Shown here: positions 2,206-16,816 of the stretch, one piece after another | Layout of the letters: the number at the start of each line of letters is the position of its first letter | How positions within the stretch are numbered: the first letter of the stretch is position 1 | Virus record (IMG/VR): IMGVR_UViG_3300028025_002817 | Coordinates: 1 to 23,284 of that record | Direction: 5' to 3' (one strand) | DNA length: 23,284 nt | Source of the DNA: a virus | Notes under the pieces: generated by a model | Database searches by the model: none | Told to the model about the DNA's origin: nothing | What the model saw: the letters and a program-made list of their open reading frames with translations, nothing else | Translations under genes and position numbers: made by a program

Positions 2206-3228
2206 TTACTTCTTTAGTGCAACCTTTAGCTTAGGGAACTTCTTGTTCCACTTTGTTGCTAGAGCGTTGTACTCTTTGATGTATGTAGCCTTAGCAAGAT
2301 CTGATGCTGCCTTTGCTGTTGCAGTTGCAGAATCTGATGCTGCCTTATCGGCTGCACGTCCCGCTCTTTCTGCTGCAAGTGCTGCATTAGCGACTGCAAG
2401 TGCTGCATTAGCTGTTGCAAGTTCTGCGTTCTTTGCTGCAAGTTCTCCTGCAAGATCACGAACTACTACTGTTGCTGTTACCGCACCTACTGGTGCTGTA
2501 AGGCCAGTTACTGCTGTTGCAACTGTTGCGTATGCTGTAACAACAACTGAACCTGAAGCAGGAAGTGTTACTGTCTGCTCCTTTGTTCCTAGTGTTGCTG
2601 TTGCTGTATCTGTTGTAAGCGCTGTTGCTGTTGCAACACCATTTGAAGATACTAGAGTATTAATTGTTGCTCCACCCTTAACGTTTCCGAATACATCGTA
2701 TCCAGTTACTTTTAGTGTTGCTACTGTGCCTGCTGCTCCAGATGCTGGTGCAGTCAAAGCGATTGAGTTCAAAGCACCTGCGGTACCTTGTACATAATAA
2801 ACTGTTGTAGTTCCAGCACGTGTGATCGATACTGTTCCTACTGCTGTACTTTTAGTATATACATAAAAGTCTGCTGAGTTTCCAGTTCCTGTTGAAACTG
2901 AAAGTGTTGAAGATCCGCTTGATGCGGTTACTGGTGCTGCTGATGTTGCTAGAGCAGAAACAATTGTTGCATTAGTTGCAACTGCTGTTACTACTGTTCC
3001 AGTGTCTACTGATGTTACAGCAATCTTCAATGCATCTGCTGCATCGATACTGTTATCTGCTGGTACTGGTAGTGCTACAGGTGTTCCTACTACTGTTCCA
3101 CCTGTTGCTGCAGATCCCGCAACCGTTAGGGTTACAGTTCCAGCGTTAGCGATAGCTGCTGGTGATACAAGCATTGTGCTAGTCAGGGCTGCAGCGATGA
3201 TTAGCGATACTTTCTTAAATGAGTTCAT
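2206..3228 (-). CDS. Secreted Ig-like/coiled-coil surface protein (340 aa)
   Basis: Residues 1-29 form a clear Sec signal peptide (KK, hydrophobic core, then IANA before Gly30). Residues 30-256 are rich in Ala, Thr, Val, Gly and Ser in alternating beta-strand patterns, with Ig-like phrases such as VTGYDVFGNVKGGATI, as in bacterial Ig-like (Big) domains. Residues 259-316 form an Ala-rich heptad-like helix (AELATANAALAVANAAL), followed by a lysine-rich tail (WNKKFPKLKVALKK). This signal / beta / coiled-coil / cationic-tail order is like surface proteins of small freshwater actinobacteria, and the tail may stick to the cell wall. A good RBS (AAGGAG) precedes the ATG by 10 bases and a strong terminator follows. 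It could be a virion adhesin, but a signal peptide argues for export by the infected cell. Role inferred only. Confidence 0.75.
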   Translation of the reverse strand: MNSFKKVSLIIAAALTSTMLVSPAAIANAGTVTLTVAGSAATGGTVVGTPVALPVPADNSIDAADALKIAVTSVDTGTVVTAVATNATIVSALATSAAPVTASSGSSTLSVSTGTGNSADFYVYTKSTAVGTVSITRAGTTTVYYVQGTAGALNSIALTAPASGAAGTVATLKVTGYDVFGNVKGGATINTLVSSNGVATATALTTDTATATLGTKEQTVTLPASGSVVVTAYATVATAVTGLTAPVGAVTATVVVRDLAGELAAKNAELATANAALAVANAALAAERAGRAADKAASDSATATAKAASDLAKATYIKEYNALATKWNKKFPKLKVALKK

Positions 3229-3276: not shown

Positions 3277-3477
3277 TTAGTGTAATTCATGTAACTTTAC
3301 ATGAAACGAGCAGGGATCTCCGCCATCATCCCATTCTTGCATTTCTTCATCTGACATTGGTGGAACATCATGCGTATTACAAAATACATCTGATACCCAA
3401 CCTCGATCATAACCATTCTTAAGCCATATTTCAAACTCTAAATGATTAGCATCTTCTGAATCAAATTCTAAATCCAT
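3277..3477 (-). CDS. Conserved-looking acidic phage protein (66 aa)
   Basis: A very acidic small protein with the segment FCNTHDVPPMSDEE and later EWDDGGDPCSFHV. I recall similar short proteins with an F-C-x-T-H-D...P...E-E-x...G-G-D-P-C pattern as conserved hypotheticals of actinobacteriophages, which supports the gene and host call but gives no function. The two Cys and two or three His could coordinate a metal. The start overlaps the end of the thioredoxin gene by 10 bases, and a GGAG site lies about 9 bases before ATG. Confidence 0.75.
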   Translation of the reverse strand: MDLEFDSEDANHLEFEIWLKNGYDRGWVSDVFCNTHDVPPMSDEEMQEWDDGGDPCSFHVKLHELH

Positions 3478-3771: not shown

Positions 3772-3984
3772 TTAGTTATCCCTTAGTGCTTCTGCTGCTG
3801 CATTGAATCTATTCATAAATTCTTGAATAGTCCAGAAGGCGGTCTCGTTAGCGTTTGCTAACATTACTTTTGATGCCTCTTCGGTTCTATCTTCAATTGC
3901 AAGAGCGTTATACCATTTCTGATACAACTCTTTTCCAATATCTTGAATGATTCCTTCTAGAACTGTTGTCTTATCCTCAGCCAA
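3772..3984 (-). CDS. Hypothetical helical protein (70 aa)
   Basis: The ORF lies between the subtilase and thioredoxin genes. Its only reasonable start is TTG at 3982-3984, inside the last codons of the subtilase gene (8-base overlap), giving MAEDKTTVLEGIIQDIGKEL. No strong ribosome-binding site is seen, so translation may depend on coupling. The sequence is predicted helical throughout, with Asn/Ala-rich amphipathic turns (NRFNAAAEAL). It contains no Cys. No family is recognised. A chaperone or inhibitor role for the neighbouring protease is possible but it lacks a signal peptide. Confidence 0.6.
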   Translation of the reverse strand: MAEDKTTVLEGIIQDIGKELYQKWYNALAIEDRTEEASKVMLANANETAFWTIQEFMNRFNAAAEALRDN

Positions 3985-4933
3985 TTGCTTTTGCCAAGTC
4001 TATTAGCTTACCGCTGCCGACTCTTGAACTTGTTGTTACAAGAGCAGTTCTTGAAATTAAATCATATAGTTCTGTGTAAGTTAAATTAGGCTTAACAGAT
4101 TTAATGGTTGCCCAAGAAGTTGCTCCAACTAAAACAGATGCTGAAGTTCCAGCAAAGTTAGTTTTCTTAGCGTCAAGTCCGTATAGAACAGTTGTTCCTC
4201 TAGCATAGAAATCAATTAGTTTAGCATCGTAATTAGAATAGAATGCAATAGATCCAGTTGGCATTGTTGCACCCATAGAGATTGACTCTGGGATACAGGA
4301 AGGCCATGAAACTCTCTTGTAGTCGCTATTGTTACCTGCTGGAAAGAAAACTCCAACACCGAGGGCATTTAGAGACTTAATCTTCTCAACAGTTGTCGGA
4401 GTCTTTGGGCAATAATCTGTCCCAGCAACTCCCAGGGAGTGTGATCCTTGTGCCATTGCAACAGACTGAATATTAAATTTAGACTGATTATTAATTACCC
4501 ATTGAAGAGCATTGTAAACAGTTGCTTCGTTTGTATGCTCTCTATTTCCATTTACACGCTGTCCCACAATTCTAATAAAGACAATCTTTACATTTGGATT
4601 AGCTTGAAGTGCTTGATCTGCCATTAAAGTTCCGTGATCAAATCCACTTACAGCAAGCTTTTCTTTTGGAAGTGTGGCTGCGCCAGGACCTTCCATTTGA
4701 GTAAGTCCGTTCGGACAACGTGCTGCTGAATCAAAGAAGATTTCGATTAAACATACTTCGTGAACAACGCTATTCTTAAACTTACTTTGTGACATGTCAA
4801 TCGCTGTGTCTAGGATTGCTATCGTTGGTGCAGAAAATGATGTGCTCTTAAGGTTAACTTTAGGAGCAGCATTTGCAGTAATTGGTAGTGCTAGTGTAAG
4901 GGCTACAAGAGCCGTGATTAGTTTTTTATTCAT
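3977..4933 (-). CDS. Secreted subtilisin-like (S8) serine protease
   Basis: A 318-residue protein with a Sec signal peptide (residues 1-22, ending ANA-A) and a subtilase catalytic domain. The triad is Asp42 (IAILDTAID), His100 (GFDHGTLMA) and Ser264 (NFAGTSASV), with the oxyanion Asn201 (PAGNNS). All key residues are present and in family order. Unlike most secreted subtilases there is no room for an I9-type propeptide: the catalytic core begins about 15 residues after the signal peptide. Cys61/73 and Cys175/213 could form disulfides. The gene has its own promoter with a perfect dyad over the -35 and a start codon 7 bases after the -10, suggesting regulated leaderless expression. A phage-encoded exported protease could cut host surface proteins, receptors or other phage products; which one is unknown. 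Confidence 0.9.
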   Translation of the reverse strand: MNKKLITALVALTLALPITANAAPKVNLKSTSFSAPTIAILDTAIDMSQSKFKNSVVHEVCLIEIFFDSAARCPNGLTQMEGPGAATLPKEKLAVSGFDHGTLMADQALQANPNVKIVFIRIVGQRVNGNREHTNEATVYNALQWVINNQSKFNIQSVAMAQGSHSLGVAGTDYCPKTPTTVEKIKSLNALGVGVFFPAGNNSDYKRVSWPSCIPESISMGATMPTGSIAFYSNYDAKLIDFYARGTTVLYGLDAKKTNFAGTSASVLVGATSWATIKSVKPNLTYTELYDLISRTALVTTSSRVGSGKLIDLAKAIG

Positions 4934-4940
4934 AGTACCT

Positions 4941-4970
4941 ATTCTACTAAATATTGACAGGTTGTCAATA
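4941..4970 (-). promoter_or_regulatory. Subtilase promoter with overlapping operator-like dyad
   Basis: TTGACA (4963-4968), a 16-base spacer and TAGAAT (4941-4946), 7 bases before the subtilase ATG. An 8-bp perfect inverted repeat TATTGACA-GGT-TGTCAATA (4952-4970) covers the -35 and part of the spacer. A dimeric repressor on it would block RNA polymerase. No candidate regulator is identified. Confidence 0.7.
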
Positions 4971-5522: not shown

Positions 5523-6080
5523 TTAAACTTGGATGTATGTATAGGGGGCAGATACGCTCATATTAAACTCGCTTGCAGCTTCTAATGCAGCCTTTAAGCG
5601 TAGCCTTGGATTCTTTTGGTTCTTGGTAGCGTATAATGCTCCTAGCGCTATCATTCCACCACTGCCTTCCGCCATGTAGTTAACAACATTTTCTCCTACA
5701 TGAAAGTCTTCATCAATAGTAAATATTCTACCGCATACCCCAACTATAAAGATACCGCCAGTATCTTCTTCTGATGATGATCCGATGCTTCCGTATCCGT
5801 TGTCTTTAAATGCTTGCTTGACAGAATCAATAAACTTGGTTCTCATAAATTTATCTAAACCTGAGTTGGTTTTTGTGGGGGTATATTTTGGTGGGGTCCA
5901 GGAGTACTGAAGGATCTGCCCCATACGGAATGAGTCCGTGAATGCAACACCGTACTGTCCTACTTTAAAAACCTTGGGCTCTTTTCTTGCAAGAATCCAA
6001 CCAGTTTTATCATCTGACGCAGCATGATCTGATGCCATATAAACGACACCATTTTGGGCAATTGCTACTATACAAGTCAT
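5523..6080 (-). CDS. Proteasome beta-like Ntn hydrolase
   Basis: A 185-residue protein with the layout of phage/bacterial Ntn hydrolases related to proteasome beta and HslV. It opens M-TCIVAIAQNGVVYMASD: after Met removal Thr1 would be the nucleophile and Asp17 (proteasome numbering) is in place. The catalytic lysine is probably K36 of the precursor in KEPKVF, two residues later than the usual K33, a small insertion. The later segments AFTDSFRMGQILQY, TPPK and EGSGGMIALGALYA fit the same phage-borne family. There is no propeptide, so only Met removal would be required. Substrate unknown: peptide or amide bond cleavage is the family chemistry. The ATG is 6 bases after TATACT, a leaderless start. 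Confidence 0.85.
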   Translation of the reverse strand: MTCIVAIAQNGVVYMASDHAASDDKTGWILARKEPKVFKVGQYGVAFTDSFRMGQILQYSWTPPKYTPTKTNSGLDKFMRTKFIDSVKQAFKDNGYGSIGSSSEEDTGGIFIVGVCGRIFTIDEDFHVGENVVNYMAEGSGGMIALGALYATKNQKNPRLRLKAALEAASEFNMSVSAPYTYIQV

Positions 6081-8057: not shown

Positions 8058-8642
8058 TTATTTTATTGATTGACCGCAGGTCTCGCACACTTTTGCTTTA
8101 GGTGCAATTTTTTGAGACTTAGATGCAGCAGGCTTAGTTGCTCCGCCAAACTTTGGTCTTCCAAAACCTACAATTGAAATCATAACTCCTGCTTTATTTT
8201 TCTTGTATGCACGAAGTTGTTTGCAAACTTCTCCGCCATTTCTTTGACTTCCAGACTTCTTTGAAGATGTGTTTCCTTCTATACACCAAACAGTTCCGTC
8301 TTCATTGTCTTTAACAACAATACCTACGTGAGAAATTCTATCGACGCCATCTGATGGGAAATCAAAATAGGCAATATCTCCTGGCTCTGGATCTGCAATG
8401 TCTCCATCGATCCATGCCCCAGCCTTTTTAAATGCTGCGGCGCCACCTGGAGTATAAACGGTGTTAGGAATCTTTACGCCACTTTCCGACCCACACCAAT
8501 TTACAAAACTTCCGCACCATGGTTGGAAGTTAGCTTTCATAAAAGCACCATACTTAGTTTCGTTATCCTTTGGGCCTTCAATGGTTCCAATCTCTGCTGT
8601 AGCAACTTCTATTAAACGTGCTGCTGTACCTTGATCTGCCAT
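8058..8642 (-). CDS. CHAP-domain endolysin
   Basis: A 194-residue cell-wall hydrolase. The chosen ATG at 8640-8642 is in a TAATG overlap with the upstream gene; a longer start would lie inside that gene. The CHAP domain covers about residues 10-160, with the nucleophile Cys43 (QPWCGSFVNWC), His105 (SHVGIVV) and the polar residue region Glu122/Asn124 (IEGNTS). A Pro/Lys-rich linker leads to a C-terminal CETCGQSIK, a possible half zinc knuckle or wall-binding tail. It should cut peptidoglycan as an amidase or endopeptidase at lysis. There is no signal peptide, so release needs a holin; small membrane proteins directly upstream are candidates. Confidence 0.9.
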   Translation of the reverse strand: MADQGTAARLIEVATAEIGTIEGPKDNETKYGAFMKANFQPWCGSFVNWCGSESGVKIPNTVYTPGGAAAFKKAGAWIDGDIADPEPGDIAYFDFPSDGVDRISHVGIVVKDNEDGTVWCIEGNTSSKKSGSQRNGGEVCKQLRAYKKNKAGVMISIVGFGRPKFGGATKPAASKSQKIAPKAKVCETCGQSIK

Positions 8643-9052
8643 TAGTCTTTGTCCCAATCTGTATCAACTGGCTGCTCTGCTGGCATTTGTCCGTCTGGCT
8701 TTGCCGCTAAACGTGCTGCAGTTGCATCAATTTCTGCTTCTAATTTTTTGTCTGCCTGTGTATTCTTTGCATCTACTTCTTTATTTGCTATCTGAGCTGC
8801 CATAATATCCTTGGCCCCTGAATTGCCGATTAGAATTCCTGCAAGTGTTCCTGTAATAAATGTTGCAATACTTCCAAGCACATTGAAAAACATCTTGTCA
8901 TTTTCTGACTGTGCTCCAATAGGCTGTGTTACGAACAATAATCCGTAAATAATTCCGATTGCTGTTAGAAACAGAATGCTTCCCAGCGTTATTCCTAAAA
9001 TAAACTTTAAACGAGCATCTAGGTCTGCAGCCGTTAATCTTTCTTTAGCCAT
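8642..9052 (-). CDS. Two-helix membrane protein of the lysis cassette (136 aa)
   Basis: Two hydrophobic segments at about residues 16-41 and 58-78, separated by a short polar loop (QSENDKMFF), then a helical charged tail with Ala/Asp/Lys heptads and an acidic end. This looks like a class II holin or a holin partner, with the tail in the cytoplasm. It precedes the endolysin in a TAATG overlap, the usual holin-endolysin order. The long tail is unusual for a holin, so a lysis accessory protein is an alternative. Confidence 0.75.
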   Translation of the reverse strand: MAKERLTAADLDARLKFILGITLGSILFLTAIGIIYGLLFVTQPIGAQSENDKMFFNVLGSIATFITGTLAGILIGNSGAKDIMAAQIANKEVDAKNTQADKKLEAEIDATAARLAAKPDGQMPAEQPVDTDWDKD

Positions 9053-9274: not shown

Positions 9275-9457
9275 CTAATCTGAGTTTCTATTTCTTATTG
9301 GGCTTGTAATTATCCAAAGAGCTGTGGTAGCCATGATTCCATAACCAACAATAGTCTTTGCACTTCCGTCCAGAACTACCCAAGCAATAAACATACCAAG
9401 AAGGGTCCATGCTTGGTCAACCATATCTTTTAGGATATTCTTTATTATTCTTACCAT
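9275..9457 (-). CDS. Small holin-like membrane protein (60 aa)
   Basis: Two hydrophobic stretches (about residues 15-30 and 33-51) with little space between them, a positively charged N-terminus (VRIIKNILKD) and a polar basic C-terminus (SPIRNRNSD). The size and charge pattern fit small holins. The start overlaps the stop of the 797-residue gene (ATGGTAA) with GAGGAAGAAA just upstream. It is the best holin candidate by size, next to a lipoprotein, a larger membrane protein and an endolysin. Confidence 0.75.
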   Translation of the reverse strand: MVRIIKNILKDMVDQAWTLLGMFIAWVVLDGSAKTIVGYGIMATTALWIITSPIRNRNSD

Positions 9458-11844
9458 TTTCTTCCTCCTCGTGAACCTGGTGAATTGGCACCTGAAGCGC
9501 CACCCCCACCAGAACTTCCTCCGCCTCCTGTGCCACTTCCAGTGGCCCCTCCTGTGGCAACTGCTGCTGCGTTAATTGCTGCACCTGCTGCTACAACTGT
9601 AGCAACCACCATATCTGTTGCTTCTTCTCTTTCTTCATCTGACATATCCGCACCTATGCTTCCAAATGCAGCCAATGCTGCTGCTGGGTTTGTAAACAGT
9701 TCTTCCACCAGCGCTCCTGGGTTTTGTAATAATTCTACTTGGGCAGCAACGGCTGCAGTAATTACAACAGCATTTCCATTTTCATCAGTACGAACATCTA
9801 CTGGTGTTGCTGGTGGCAAATCAGAATATGATACGCCTGCTGCTTTTATATCTGCAGATGAAACTGTTTCTCCAGGCTTAATCGACTCAAGAAGTTTTTC
9901 TACAACAACTTCCTTTTGCTCTTCAGTTAGTTTGCCTTCTTCTGCTGCTTTCTTTAATTCTTCCGCCTCTGCTTTAGCCGCTTCTAACTCTGCAGCTTTT
10001 GCTTCAGCTTCCGCTTTTGCATCTGCCGCTTCTTGTGCTTTAGCTTCTGCTTCTGCTTTAGCATCTGCTTCTGCTTGCGCTGCCGCTTTAGCCTCTGCCT
10101 CTAACCTATCCGCTTCCGCTTTTGCATCTGCTTCAGCTTGTTCTTTAGCTTCTTGTTCTGCTTGCGCTGCTGCTTCTTCTGCTGCTATACGATCAGCCTC
10201 TGCTTTAGCAGCGGCTTCTTCTGCGGCTACACGGTCTGCTTCAGCCTTAGCTGCTGCTTCCTCTGCGGCTTTAGCTTCTGCTTCTGCCTTTGCTGCAGCT
10301 TCCGCTGCTGCTTTGGCTTCTGCTTCTGCCTTTGCTGCAGCTTCCGCTGCTGCCTTGGCGGCTGCTTCTGCTGCTGCTGCTTGTGCAGCTGCTCTTTGTG
10401 CTGCAGCTTCCGCTGCTGCTGCTTCTTGTGCTGCTTGTGCTGCTGCAGCCTCTGCTGCGGCATTTGCAGCGGCTTGTGCTGCTGCTTGTTGCTCTGCATA
10501 ATAATTAACTGTAACCTGTGCTGCATTTGTCATTGCAGTTACTGCTTCATTTACCTTTGTTGTTGCTGTATTAGCAAGGGCATCTGCTGTTTGAACTGTT
10601 ACTGTAGCAGTTTCTGTAAGCTGATTCAGTGTAGCAACTTCTGCTGCTTTGACCTCTGTTTTATCTACAACTACTGCTTCTGCTGCAGTCTTCTGTGTAG
10701 TAAGAGTATTAAGTACTGCAGTATCAGTGTTAAGAGTTGTCTGTGCGGTGGCAACTGCGGCAACTAATACTGGATCTTTTGTTACTATTGTAGTTGCAAA
10801 TGCTGTTTGATTTGGAGTAGTAAAATATCCGCTTCCATCTTGTCTCATTATTAGCCAGCCAAGTATAACTTGTGATGCTCCACCATTTTCATAGTACCAA
10901 ATGGTAAAGTCCTGTTGTTTATCTACATCTGTGTTGTAGGTTGGAGAATATTGACTCCAACCCCCGCCCTTATCAATCCACTCATTGATTGCAAGCTGCC
11001 CATCGACATACATCTTTGCGCCATCATCTGAATGAATTGCATATTTTACCGTTACTGCTTCTTCTGGAACGGTAATAGTTCCTTCAAATTTAACAATTAC
11101 ATTGTCTACCCGCCCAGAATTAAATACCTGTCCGCTTCCAAATTGGTGAGCAATATAAGGAACTGTTGTTGTTGAAAGTGGTGTTGCATTTTCTGCTGGA
11201 AGTGGGGGCTGCTGTCCGCCAGGGGATGCGTATGTCGTTACTTCAATTCCATTAGTTGTGGTTTCTACGGCTGAAGCATCTGCAGCAGCTTGGGCTGCGG
11301 AAAGGTTTGTGGTGTCTGTAGCAACTACAGCAGTTTGTGATTCAACCTGTTGTGTTACTGTATTCAAATTTGTTTGAGCATTATTTAGATTTGTTGTTGC
11401 TGTGGCAACTACTGCAGTTTGTGATTCAACTGCTGTTTGGGCTGTCGCTGCAACTGTAACTGCTGTCTCAGCAGACTGTATTGCAGTGTTAGCCTCTTGC
11501 ACCTTAACTGTTGCTGATTCAACTGCTGCCTTAATTGGCTCTTGAGTTGTAGCAATTTGAGTAGCAGTCTGAGTATCTGTGTTTGGCACATTTGCTTGAA
11601 TTGTAGATATGATCGCATTGCCTTGTGCCTGGGCTGCCGCTTGTAGTGTTGTTTCTGCTGTCTCGACCTTAGCTGCAACTGTCTCAACTGTAATAGGAGT
11701 GGTTGCTGTGGCGGTATCTGAAGATGGATTTGCTGGTGTTACCTGAACTGTAACTTCCTCAGCATGGGCATTACTTGGCGCAAAAAGAAAGAGCCAGCCG
11801 ATTATAAAAAGGCTGGTTAAGGTATACTGTAACTTTCTAGTCAA
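9451..11844 (-). CDS. Secreted PA14-domain, alanine-rich surface protein (797 aa)
   Basis: The start is TTG (11842-11844) with AGGAGA 7 bases upstream. Residues 1-28 form a Sec signal peptide (ending AHA). Residues 50-195 are Thr/Ala/Gln-rich helix with a repeated QTAVVAT unit. Residues about 222-345 match a PA14 domain: FEGTITVPEEAVTVKYAI, HSDDGAKMYVDG, W, IWYYENGG. PA14 domains usually bind sugars. Another helical part follows, then an Ala/Glu/Lys coiled coil (about 449-635, EAAAKAEAEAKAAA repeats), a small folded part (about 640-745), a hydrophobic Ala-rich stretch and a Gly/Ser tail ending GGRKW. It could be an exported adhesin or a long stalk with a sugar-binding head. It has its own promoter (11888-11893). 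A virion fibre is possible, but fibres do not normally carry signal peptides. Confidence 0.8.
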   Translation of the reverse strand: MTRKLQYTLTSLFIIGWLFLFAPSNAHAEEVTVQVTPANPSSDTATATTPITVETVAAKVETAETTLQAAAQAQGNAIISTIQANVPNTDTQTATQIATTQEPIKAAVESATVKVQEANTAIQSAETAVTVAATAQTAVESQTAVVATATTNLNNAQTNLNTVTQQVESQTAVVATDTTNLSAAQAAADASAVETTTNGIEVTTYASPGGQQPPLPAENATPLSTTTVPYIAHQFGSGQVFNSGRVDNVIVKFEGTITVPEEAVTVKYAIHSDDGAKMYVDGQLAINEWIDKGGGWSQYSPTYNTDVDKQQDFTIWYYENGGASQVILGWLIMRQDGSGYFTTPNQTAFATTIVTKDPVLVAAVATAQTTLNTDTAVLNTLTTQKTAAEAVVVDKTEVKAAEVATLNQLTETATVTVQTADALANTATTKVNEAVTAMTNAAQVTVNYYAEQQAAAQAAANAAAEAAAAQAAQEAAAAEAAAQRAAAQAAAAEAAAKAAAEAAAKAEAEAKAAAEAAAKAEAEAKAAEEAAAKAEADRVAAEEAAAKAEADRIAAEEAAAQAEQEAKEQAEADAKAEADRLEAEAKAAAQAEADAKAEAEAKAQEAADAKAEAEAKAAELEAAKAEAEELKKAAEEGKLTEEQKEVVVEKLLESIKPGETVSSADIKAAGVSYSDLPPATPVDVRTDENGNAVVITAAVAAQVELLQNPGALVEELFTNPAAALAAFGSIGADMSDEEREEATDMVVATVVAAGAAINAAAVATGGATGSGTGGGGSSGGGGASGANSPGSRGGRKW
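10274..10353 (-). repeat. 42-bp direct repeat in the alanine-rich region
   Basis: Two nearly identical copies of a GCT/GCA-rich unit begin at 10274 and 10316 (period 42 bases, 14 codons, about 38 matching bases each). Weaker copies flank them. They encode the EAEAKAAAEAAAKA coiled-coil motif and are a place where copy number could change by slippage. Confidence 0.75.
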
Positions 11845-14797: not shown

Positions 14798-15017
14798 TAG
14801 TTGATTCAACTATTTGCTGTACGTATTCAGAAAAATGTTTTCTAATATTTCCCATTGGCCTATGTCCAGCTAGCTTCCATATTCTCTTATACTCAATTAC
14901 ATTAGAGAATGTAGTTGGGCAAAGAACTATTCCATTATATTCTTTTAATACAGTAGGTAGCGGAACATGCTTTCCACAACACTTGCATTCTTTTGCTTTT
15001 TCTTGATACGTGCTCAT
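14769..15017 (-). CDS. Small cysteine/histidine protein after terminase (82 aa)
   Basis: The protein starts MSTYQEKAKECKCCGKHVPLP, with C11-x2-C14 and His17, then Cys33 in GIVLCPTTF, a probable zinc site at the N-terminus. The rest is basic and helical (YKRIWKLAGHRP, IRKHFSEYVQQIVES). A zinc finger followed by a helical part occurs in small HNH-like proteins, but the HNH catalytic residues are not evident. The start overlaps the terminase stop as ATGA, so it is translated after TerL. No family is recognised. Confidence 0.75.
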   Translation of the reverse strand: MSTYQEKAKECKCCGKHVPLPTVLKEYNGIVLCPTTFSNVIEYKRIWKLAGHRPMGNIRKHFSEYVQQIVESTIDKNEDGTL

Positions 15018-16816
15018 AGTATTTGCATCCTGTCCATTGCGTCTCTTAAATTTTCTGGCATTCTTGGTGCCCTTATAAGATTATAGGAGTTAGTTTCTCC
15101 GTCATTTTCTGTTCCAAAATCATTGTCGTAGCTCATAGATTCATATGTATGTATATTTACTTCTTGATTTGTATCAAACTTACTTCTACTTATTGAGTTA
15201 TAAATTGATCCACAAACTGCATCCGCCAAGTCTTTTGAGCCTTTTCTTGGGTGGTCTACCCTATCTCGCATAATTCTTAATTGCAATAGCTCATCAATTA
15301 GCAAAGGAATATGCGGACCAATTACTCTTTCTTCAGCAACAACCATTGCCATATCGTCATAATGCTTTTTAGCGACAGATAGAATTTCTGTATTGATGCC
15401 GTATTGTTTTAGTTGTTGCATCATATCATGTGAATTCCATCTGTCAAAGGTACATACACGAATTTTAAATCCTCGTGTTTTCAATGAAAGAATATAATCT
15501 TTAACTTCAGTAAAGTCTACAGACTTATCTTTTGTTGGTGTCCAAAATCTGACAGCATCTATTTCTACAATTGGAGCTGGCTGTGAATAAGTATCTGTTA
15601 CTTTTACATTTACCCATTTGTTAACATGTGCCATTGCAACGGCACAGTGGTCATGCTTTTGAGCAAGGTCAACGTGTATAAAATATTCTTTATCTGGATC
15701 TGGCAAGAACCAATCTTCTAGTCTGCCAAAGTTATCTACCGCAAGGTGCGCTTTATTAAATGCCTTCTCGACCTTCTCTTTTGATTTAAAGAATGCATCT
15801 ACAGCATCTGGTGGCATGCAGGCAAAACGTGACAGGGCATCAAGAGGGTTAGTAAAGAATGCAACCTTAAAATCATTAATGCTTCTAACTGGGTTTACTT
15901 CCCAAGTAGGCCTTTTTAAAGCATAAACTTTTGGTATTTTATATGAGATTATGTGATCTTCTTCCCATTGAATCTCAAACTCATTGCCAACAGTCCCGTC
16001 TGGTAGGTCCTCGTCCATCTTAAATTCATGATCACGAATAACGGTTTCAACTTCTGCAACAACGGCATTATATCTTTGCTGTATGTAATCGTTTTTGTAT
16101 CTTGGGAAAGACAAAAGTATTACCTTGCCAAAGTCTGGAAAACGGGAGTCCACTGATGCACGGTACATATCATATATACCTGCACCTGTTTTTGCCTGAT
16201 CGTGACCTGTTGTATTTTCAATTGCAAAGCCTGAAATCTCATCAAGGATAACTACTATAACGTTATATCCTTCCCAGGCTTCACGTTCTGAGTGACCTGA
16301 GTGTACTGTAATAGCCTTATCAAATTTAACTTCTGAAGCTTTGTCGTTATACTTTCCAGCAAACCAAGGTGACTTGTCGATGCGTGTCTTAAATCCTTTA
16401 AAGAAAACGTTGCTTGCCTGCTGAGCGTTGATAGCAATATTGATAATGTCAATGCTATCTCCTGGAGGTTTGCCATAATATGTTGCTGGATCTTTTAGGC
16501 ATAACAAAAGATATACAATGTATGCTACTGCAATTGTTGAGCAGTAATCTTTTCCAGAACCTTTTCCGAGCTGAGCAACTACTTCATTAGCAGTCTGTTT
16601 AAATCTTATTCTTCCTTCTTCTTCTCCAAATAGCTTGATGAGTGTTGACTCTTTGTAGATTTGCGAACTTTTTTCGATAAGCGTGTACTGATAGTCGGAA
16701 AGCTCTGGAAGCCCAAGGTATTCTGGACTTCTAACAAACGTTTTAAGATCGACTGGTTTTTCATCGAACTCCTCTCCATCGAGCATGTCGATAAGATCAG
16801 CAAACTCAAACGACAT
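15014..16816 (-). CDS. Terminase large subunit (TerL)
   Basis: A 600-residue packaging motor. The ATPase part has a Walker A variant at 81-90 (AQLGKGSGKD), a Walker B with catalytic acid at 186-193 (VIVVILDE) and a coupling motif region near 232-240 (VILLSFPRY). The nuclease part shows the acidic residues of an RNase H-like fold at Asp383 (FIHVDLAQKHDH), Asp458 (CTFDRWNSHD) and Asp532 (KDLADAVCG). It would translocate DNA into proheads and cut concatemers. It overlaps TerS by 11 bases, with AGAGGAAG before the ATG. This is the clearest proof that the window is phage DNA. Confidence 0.95.
   Translation of the reverse strand: MSFEFADLIDMLDGEEFDEKPVDLKTFVRSPEYLGLPELSDYQYTLIEKSSQIYKESTLIKLFGEEEGRIRFKQTANEVVAQLGKGSGKDYCSTIAVAYIVYLLLCLKDPATYYGKPPGDSIDIINIAINAQQASNVFFKGFKTRIDKSPWFAGKYNDKASEVKFDKAITVHSGHSEREAWEGYNVIVVILDEISGFAIENTTGHDQAKTGAGIYDMYRASVDSRFPDFGKVILLSFPRYKNDYIQQRYNAVVAEVETVIRDHEFKMDEDLPDGTVGNEFEIQWEEDHIISYKIPKVYALKRPTWEVNPVRSINDFKVAFFTNPLDALSRFACMPPDAVDAFFKSKEKVEKAFNKAHLAVDNFGRLEDWFLPDPDKEYFIHVDLAQKHDHCAVAMAHVNKWVNVKVTDTYSQPAPIVEIDAVRFWTPTKDKSVDFTEVKDYILSLKTRGFKIRVCTFDRWNSHDMMQQLKQYGINTEILSVAKKHYDDMAMVVAEERVIGPHIPLLIDELLQLRIMRDRVDHPRKGSKDLADAVCGSIYNSISRSKFDTNQEVNIHTYESMSYDNDFGTENDGETNSYNLIRAPRMPENLRDAMDRMQIL

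Follow-up and report, generated by a model that had tools for sequence, protein, structure and literature searches.

A predicted exported subtilase without a prodomain in actinobacterial phages and their putative freshwater hosts

The stretch of viral DNA analysed here, referred to as the window, comprises 23,284 nt of the IMG/VR virus record IMGVR_UViG_3300028025_002817 (positions 1 to 23,284) and encodes a predicted secreted subtilase of peptidase family S8 which has no prodomain. The protein has 318 amino acids and is read on the minus strand (3977..4933), an assignment based on an open reading frame with an ATG start, Pfam and homologues. It is fairly probable that this S8 subtilase derives from a host, is exported by Sec and folds in the envelope with neither a prodomain nor a dedicated partner. 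The broader proposition, for which the balance is roughly even, is that a natural family of exported subtilases, present in phages and in tiny freshwater actinobacteria, has dispensed with the prodomain through the same loop deletion that engineers have used, together with disulfides, and that phages captured it at least twice. The novelty would lie in a natural, widespread, exported and prodomain-free family common to phages and hosts, and not in its fold or chemistry.

Every test run places the window protein in family S8, with proteolytic activity predicted from its sequence. Pfam PF00082 (Peptidase_S8) matches residues 35-303 of the open reading frame at 1.9e-16 (60.7 bits against a cut-off of 21.8), and the only PHROG to match, phrog_3677 'protease' (2.5e-16), does so at positions 598-849 of a profile of 1125. 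The catalytic triad and the oxyanion-hole asparagine are present in the order D-H-N-S, as Asp42 in ILDTAID (4808..4810), His100 in DHGT (4634..4636), Asn201 in AGN (4331..4333) and Ser264 in GTSAS (4142..4144), all on the minus strand. These residues had been placed correctly in the initial annotation, and none of them varies among the 78 distinct complete phage homologues. The homologues come from IMG/VR, where the window protein, proteins related to it and the motif DHGTxMAD, used as queries, brought up close relatives at 73-92% identity, grouped with the window protein in clade A, and a second phage clade at about 30% identity (clade B; L014, L101-L109); in a further scan with a third subgroup, at least 222 stretches were found to encode a relative, 80 being kept. 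Four cysteines are equally invariant in the 78 proteins, namely Cys61 (4751..4753), Cys73 (4715..4717), Cys175 (4409..4411) and Cys213 (4295..4297), again on the minus strand, the last of them lying two residues past the proline equivalent to Pro168 of BPN'. Between close phage copies in the window's subclade, dN/dS is 0.10-0.19, which indicates that the gene is under purifying selection. Retention of the subtilase fold as a binding or structural protein, with protease function lost, is very improbable: Pfam scores are weak in clade B and two of 14 members fall below detection, but Asp, His, Asn and Ser are kept in all 78 phage and all 11 host members, an invariance that would not be expected of a pseudo-enzyme among proteins as little as about 30% identical. 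The mycosins (TIGR03921), suggested at the outset for comparison, are also exported actinobacterial subtilases, but the sequence match is weak (29.1 bits against a cut-off of 278.75) and the phage protein has no C-terminal membrane helix, so that the comparison fails as a class assignment.

Export had likewise been proposed, and the N-terminus is indeed signal-peptide-like, with MNKK followed by a hydrophobic core (maximum 12-residue hydropathy 2.64) and then TANA|AP. Judged by hydropathy and sequence pattern, residues 1-22 (MNKKLITALVALTLALPITANA; 4868..4933, minus strand) are likely to form a Sec signal peptide cleaved after Ala22 (22/23), a residue invariant in the relatives aligned. About 13 residues separate this site from Pro36 of the core, close to the 15 or so first estimated, which upholds the earlier claim that no I9-type prodomain fits. 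This short linker (residues 23-35; 4829..4867, minus strand), recognised from alignments and a fold search, stands in place of a prodomain of about 75 amino acids, whereas the precursor of native BPN' carries a prosegment of 77 residues. In the 78 phage proteins, the catalytic Asp comes 31-44 amino acids after the earliest possible start. The Inhibitor_I9 domain was not found by Pfam in the window protein and 13 other family members (n = 14), nor did any of eight related phage records, 54-116 kb long, yield it. It was detected in the control subtilases L138 and L148, from the same bacterial order as the host copies described below, and 8 of 61 genomes from this host-like order also encode it, in open frames of 381-1584 aa. 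With the N-terminal Inhibitor_I9 missing, the window protein falls outside the I9-type prosubtilases.

Other ways of accommodating a prodomain were rejected. A start codon called too far downstream is contradicted by an in-frame stop 13 codons before the ATG with no start among these codons, and hence there is no longer form of the subtilase. In the fold search, residues 16-318 of the model align with residues 1-275 of mature subtilisin, which places the beginning of the mature phage protein slightly inside the mature subtilisin N-terminus. An internal stretch acting as a prodomain, which the initial annotation had itself set against its claim, finds no room in the window protein, where the largest insert, between Asp and His, is about 26 residues; nor does a C-terminal one, the 54 residues after Ser264 being as many as in BPN'. 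Prodomain loss may be wider in these bacteria, to go by four larger host subtilases (L133, L152, L134 and L135; 489-769 aa) with only 41-95 residues before Asp, of which L133, the sole one scanned, has no I9 by Pfam.

Subtilisin is the textbook example of a protein that needs its prodomain to fold, and loop 75-83 of BPN' forms its calcium site A. In the phage family, the stretch from His100 to Pro113 (4595..4636, minus strand) has a spacing of 13 residues in 78 of 78 phage and 11 of 11 host members, against 22 in BPN', which indicates that the 9-residue calcium-A loop is naturally missing; the family profile is ungapped between these two residues against the loop-deleted engineered subtilisin 6ube. 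An AlphaFold model of the subtilase, built from 15 sequences, shows the subtilisin fold when compared with the PDB, albeit with modest scores (mean pLDDT only 70.5, pTM 0.77) and low pLDDT in parts near the cysteines. Its best PDB matches are subtilisins (Foldseek E 1.2e-14; VIA Z 26.7 for 7am7_A over 250 residues at 3.0 A, level with 3ti7 and many others), and loop-deleted variants rank with the top matches (7am7_A, as well as 1suc and 1gns at Z 26.3), on a par with many further subtilases. BPN' and its loop-deleted variants (delta 75-83; 1suc, 1gns, 3f49, 6ube) have the same S8 fold and triad as the phage subtilase, and the variants share with it the absence of the loop, so that a likeness in folding is drawn by analogy. 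The phage family differs from them in being natural and not engineered, in an identity of about 20%, and in having four cysteines, an insert between Asp and His and a shorter N-terminus. For an engineered calcium-loop-deleted BPN' mutant, it has been reported that the prodomain is not strictly needed for folding (PMC4865297).

A mechanism can be proposed on this basis, in which the subtilase would be exported by Sec and its signal peptide removed, and the short core would then fold unaided for want of the calcium-A loop that raises the folding barrier of BPN'. Two disulfides among the four invariant cysteines, of putative pairing, would probably assist folding, and the enzyme would be active as soon as it arrives, without autoprocessing. 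Loss of the calcium loop was rejected as a sufficient explanation, since the loop is likewise missing from some actinobacterial relatives (L113-L117), which retain three of the four cysteine columns and yet have a long N-terminal region, judged to be a pro-region by length and position (the Pfam I9 model did not score L113); loop loss and the cysteines are thus better regarded as permissive. Proteinase K is a similar counter-example. Given that most cysteine positions are also found in L113-L117, loop loss and most of these positions probably preceded prodomain loss. The larger set of prodomain-bearing actinobacterial S8 proteins (L113-L122) has the Cys61, Cys73 and Cys213 positions in common with the phage subtilase, and L113-L117 among them the short His-Pro spacing, but these proteins have 144-361 residues before Asp and mostly large C-terminal extensions.

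The initial annotation had put forward, as a candidate folding factor, the 70-residue protein encoded next (3772..3984, minus strand, with an 8-nt overlap with the subtilase gene), provided that it reaches the same compartment. This caveat is decisive against it, as the protein has no signal peptide: in 37 homologues, the maximum 12-mer hydropathy is 0.5-1.7, against 2.2-3.2 in the subtilases, and nothing in the sequence would bring it to the exported enzyme. The possibility of an I9-like prodomain supplied in trans was discarded, with hhalign giving a probability of 0.1% and no profile similarity to I9 prodomains, and a search against solved structures by sequence giving no relative (best E 0.83). 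The gene is constant in clade A only, where it occurs in 51 of the 51 loci with enough flank (37 by ORF search and 14 more by frame search), but the HslV-like, 119-aa, 59-aa, thioredoxin and 66-aa genes are retained there almost as consistently, and since the entire surrounding gene block is syntenic in this clade, such constancy says little. It is absent beside the subtilase in clade B (0 of 5) and in the four host loci examined, which indicates that it is not required for folding across the family, and between the window and L004 it has diverged more rapidly than the subtilase gene (dN 0.26 against 0.16). Although the gene overlap and the presence throughout clade A speak for the 70-residue protein being a partner nonetheless, whether it assists folding or inhibits the protease in the cytoplasm and so shields the cell from unexported enzyme, these observations make it quite improbable.

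A folding partner in trans might instead be another exported protein of the phage or the host. The precedent is the ASP protease of Aeromonas sobria, an exported propeptide-deficient subtilase followed, as in the phage, by a small gene, which needs ORF2 encoded just downstream (PMC5638518). ASP is a 65 kDa, kexin-like, ORF2-dependent enzyme, however, against 318 aa for the phage subtilase, and the small neighbour in the phage, having no signal peptide and not occurring family-wide, does not correspond to an exported downstream chaperone. Several other neighbours in clade A are exported or membrane-anchored, such as the 119-aa protein, which has an N-terminal hydrophobic segment and is found in 51 of 56 loci, but no homologue of this protein or of a 340-aa exported protein was detected near the gene in clade B, and the eight phage records mentioned above hold no I9 domain. 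A partner in trans is considered unlikely; it would need to be either a general factor of the host or a different protein in each clade. An envelope chaperone of the host or phage, unrelated to I9, may also aid folding. The 340-aa protein itself (2206-3228, minus strand) has an Ala-rich coiled region and a conserved C-terminus, KEYNALATKWNKKFPKLKVALKK, and two of 101 genomes from the host-like order encode relatives 40-44% identical to it (L321, L322).

The preferred reading, an exported enzyme that folds unaided, also includes a host origin. The designation 'phage subtilase' in the initial annotation stands in so far as the gene is phage-borne, but the family has cellular members as well. Among 395 genomes of a single actinobacterial class, to which an Arthrobacter locus had led, two (1.4 and 1.3 Mb) contained a strong single-domain match, and 11 host copies were found in 10 of the 201 genomes of their order, these genomes being about 1.1-1.5 Mb in size. 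All 11 have 28-46 residues before Asp, the four cysteines, the 13-residue His-Pro spacing and the catalytic residues. Genomes of roughly 1.3-1.4 Mb, of which 50 of 61 carry a rhodopsin gene, lead us to infer that this order fits 'Ca. Nanopelagicales'. One host copy sits 980 kb into a 1.4 Mb genome, on a long contig of the chromosome, and adjoins acyl-CoA dehydrogenase-like and phosphotransferase-like genes (named by eye), a setting which indicates that this copy is cellular. The window carries a WhiB gene (4.3e-11), a marker of actinophages (PMC10202952, PMC6802176). Phylogenetic analysis placed 33 prodomain-free sequences on one side of a branch with 100/96 support and 27 other subtilases on the other. 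The phage copies sit in two places among the host copies, with well-supported branches forcing at least two changes of the phage label, so phages have probably captured the gene twice; given the long branches of the tree, exact placements are less sure than this split into two clades. As to direction, we infer transfer from host to phage.

Within the phages, the subtilase gene is present in at least 8 of 18 contigs picked by a related terminase, a lower bound because these are fragments. The window's own terminase (15014-16816, minus strand) is 62-65% identical to those of Streptomyces phages of 121-130 kb, e.g. BillNye and Gilson. A close relative of the subtilase occurs in none of 50,697 phage records, scans of genome contigs gave no match with clade-A patterns and no convincing relative with the motif (best E 0.05), and none was found in viral contigs scanned with the host protein L111. 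One match, L110, filed under 'Acinetobacter phage MD-2021a' (CAKLQH020000003.1), was set aside as the region looks like bacterial chromosome, with astB, astE and further genes of bacterial type flanking the subtilisin gene. In clade A, L236-L240 and most of L241-L320 carry an Ala/Lys-rich C-terminal extension of 60-90 residues ending in ARLNG, which is probably helical; it is lacking in the window's subclade and in clade B, the window protein stopping before it, and several close relatives of the window protein end in common with LNG.

Directly upstream of the subtilase gene lies a promoter-like site, TTGACA-16-TAGAAT (4941..4968, minus strand; 11 of 12 positions), with both the -35 and -10 elements kept in 6 of 6 aligned phages, which suggests that the gene has its own transcription start. 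Overlapping the -35 element is a perfect palindrome, TTGACA-NNN-TGTCAA (4954-4968), the sole copy in the window and kept in 5 of 6 phages, which is a possible operator. Further upstream, an HslV/proteasome-like Ntn hydrolase is encoded (5523-6080, minus strand; phrog_1040, 6.2e-19) in 52 of 56 loci, and a similar gene stands beside the subtilase in three clade-B contigs, so that an intracellular protease-like phage gene adjoins that of an exported protease. The gene for a 66-aa protein without a signal peptide (3277-3477, minus strand) keeps close to that of the subtilase in phages of either clade (49 of 56 loci), and in clade B it lies directly upstream. The window also encodes an exported protein of 797 aa, rich in Ala and with a PA14 domain (2.2e-6; 9451-11844, minus strand), and a CHAP endolysin (8058-8657).

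That the subtilase is predicted to be exported, is under selection and probably came from a host suggests that it cleaves proteins outside the membrane while infection is under way, although this carries less weight than the folding proposal: the phage may use the subtilase to cut surface or released proteins outside the host, with receptor or envelope proteins, or peptides for nutrition, as candidate targets. Proteolysis at the surface or in the envelope, by receptor removal or help in lysis, is placed first among the roles as a tentative assignment, and nutrition on peptides second, as a rather doubtful one. Freshwater phages have been proposed to carry genes important inside grazing flagellates (PMC6802176), and the protease might accordingly be directed at eukaryotic grazers that ingest the infected cell instead of at the bacterial surface, but the same enzyme is found on host chromosomes and no eukaryotic target is indicated by the sequence, which leaves this role with hardly any likelihood. 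No mention of a subtilase was found in the open-access literature searched on these freshwater phages. If folding without a prodomain is true, the question of what replaces the prodomain becomes directly testable, with the prodomain-bearing relatives as controls, and exported proteolysis would constitute an unstudied part of infection in an abundant group of freshwater phages, represented by at least 222 IMG/VR stretches.
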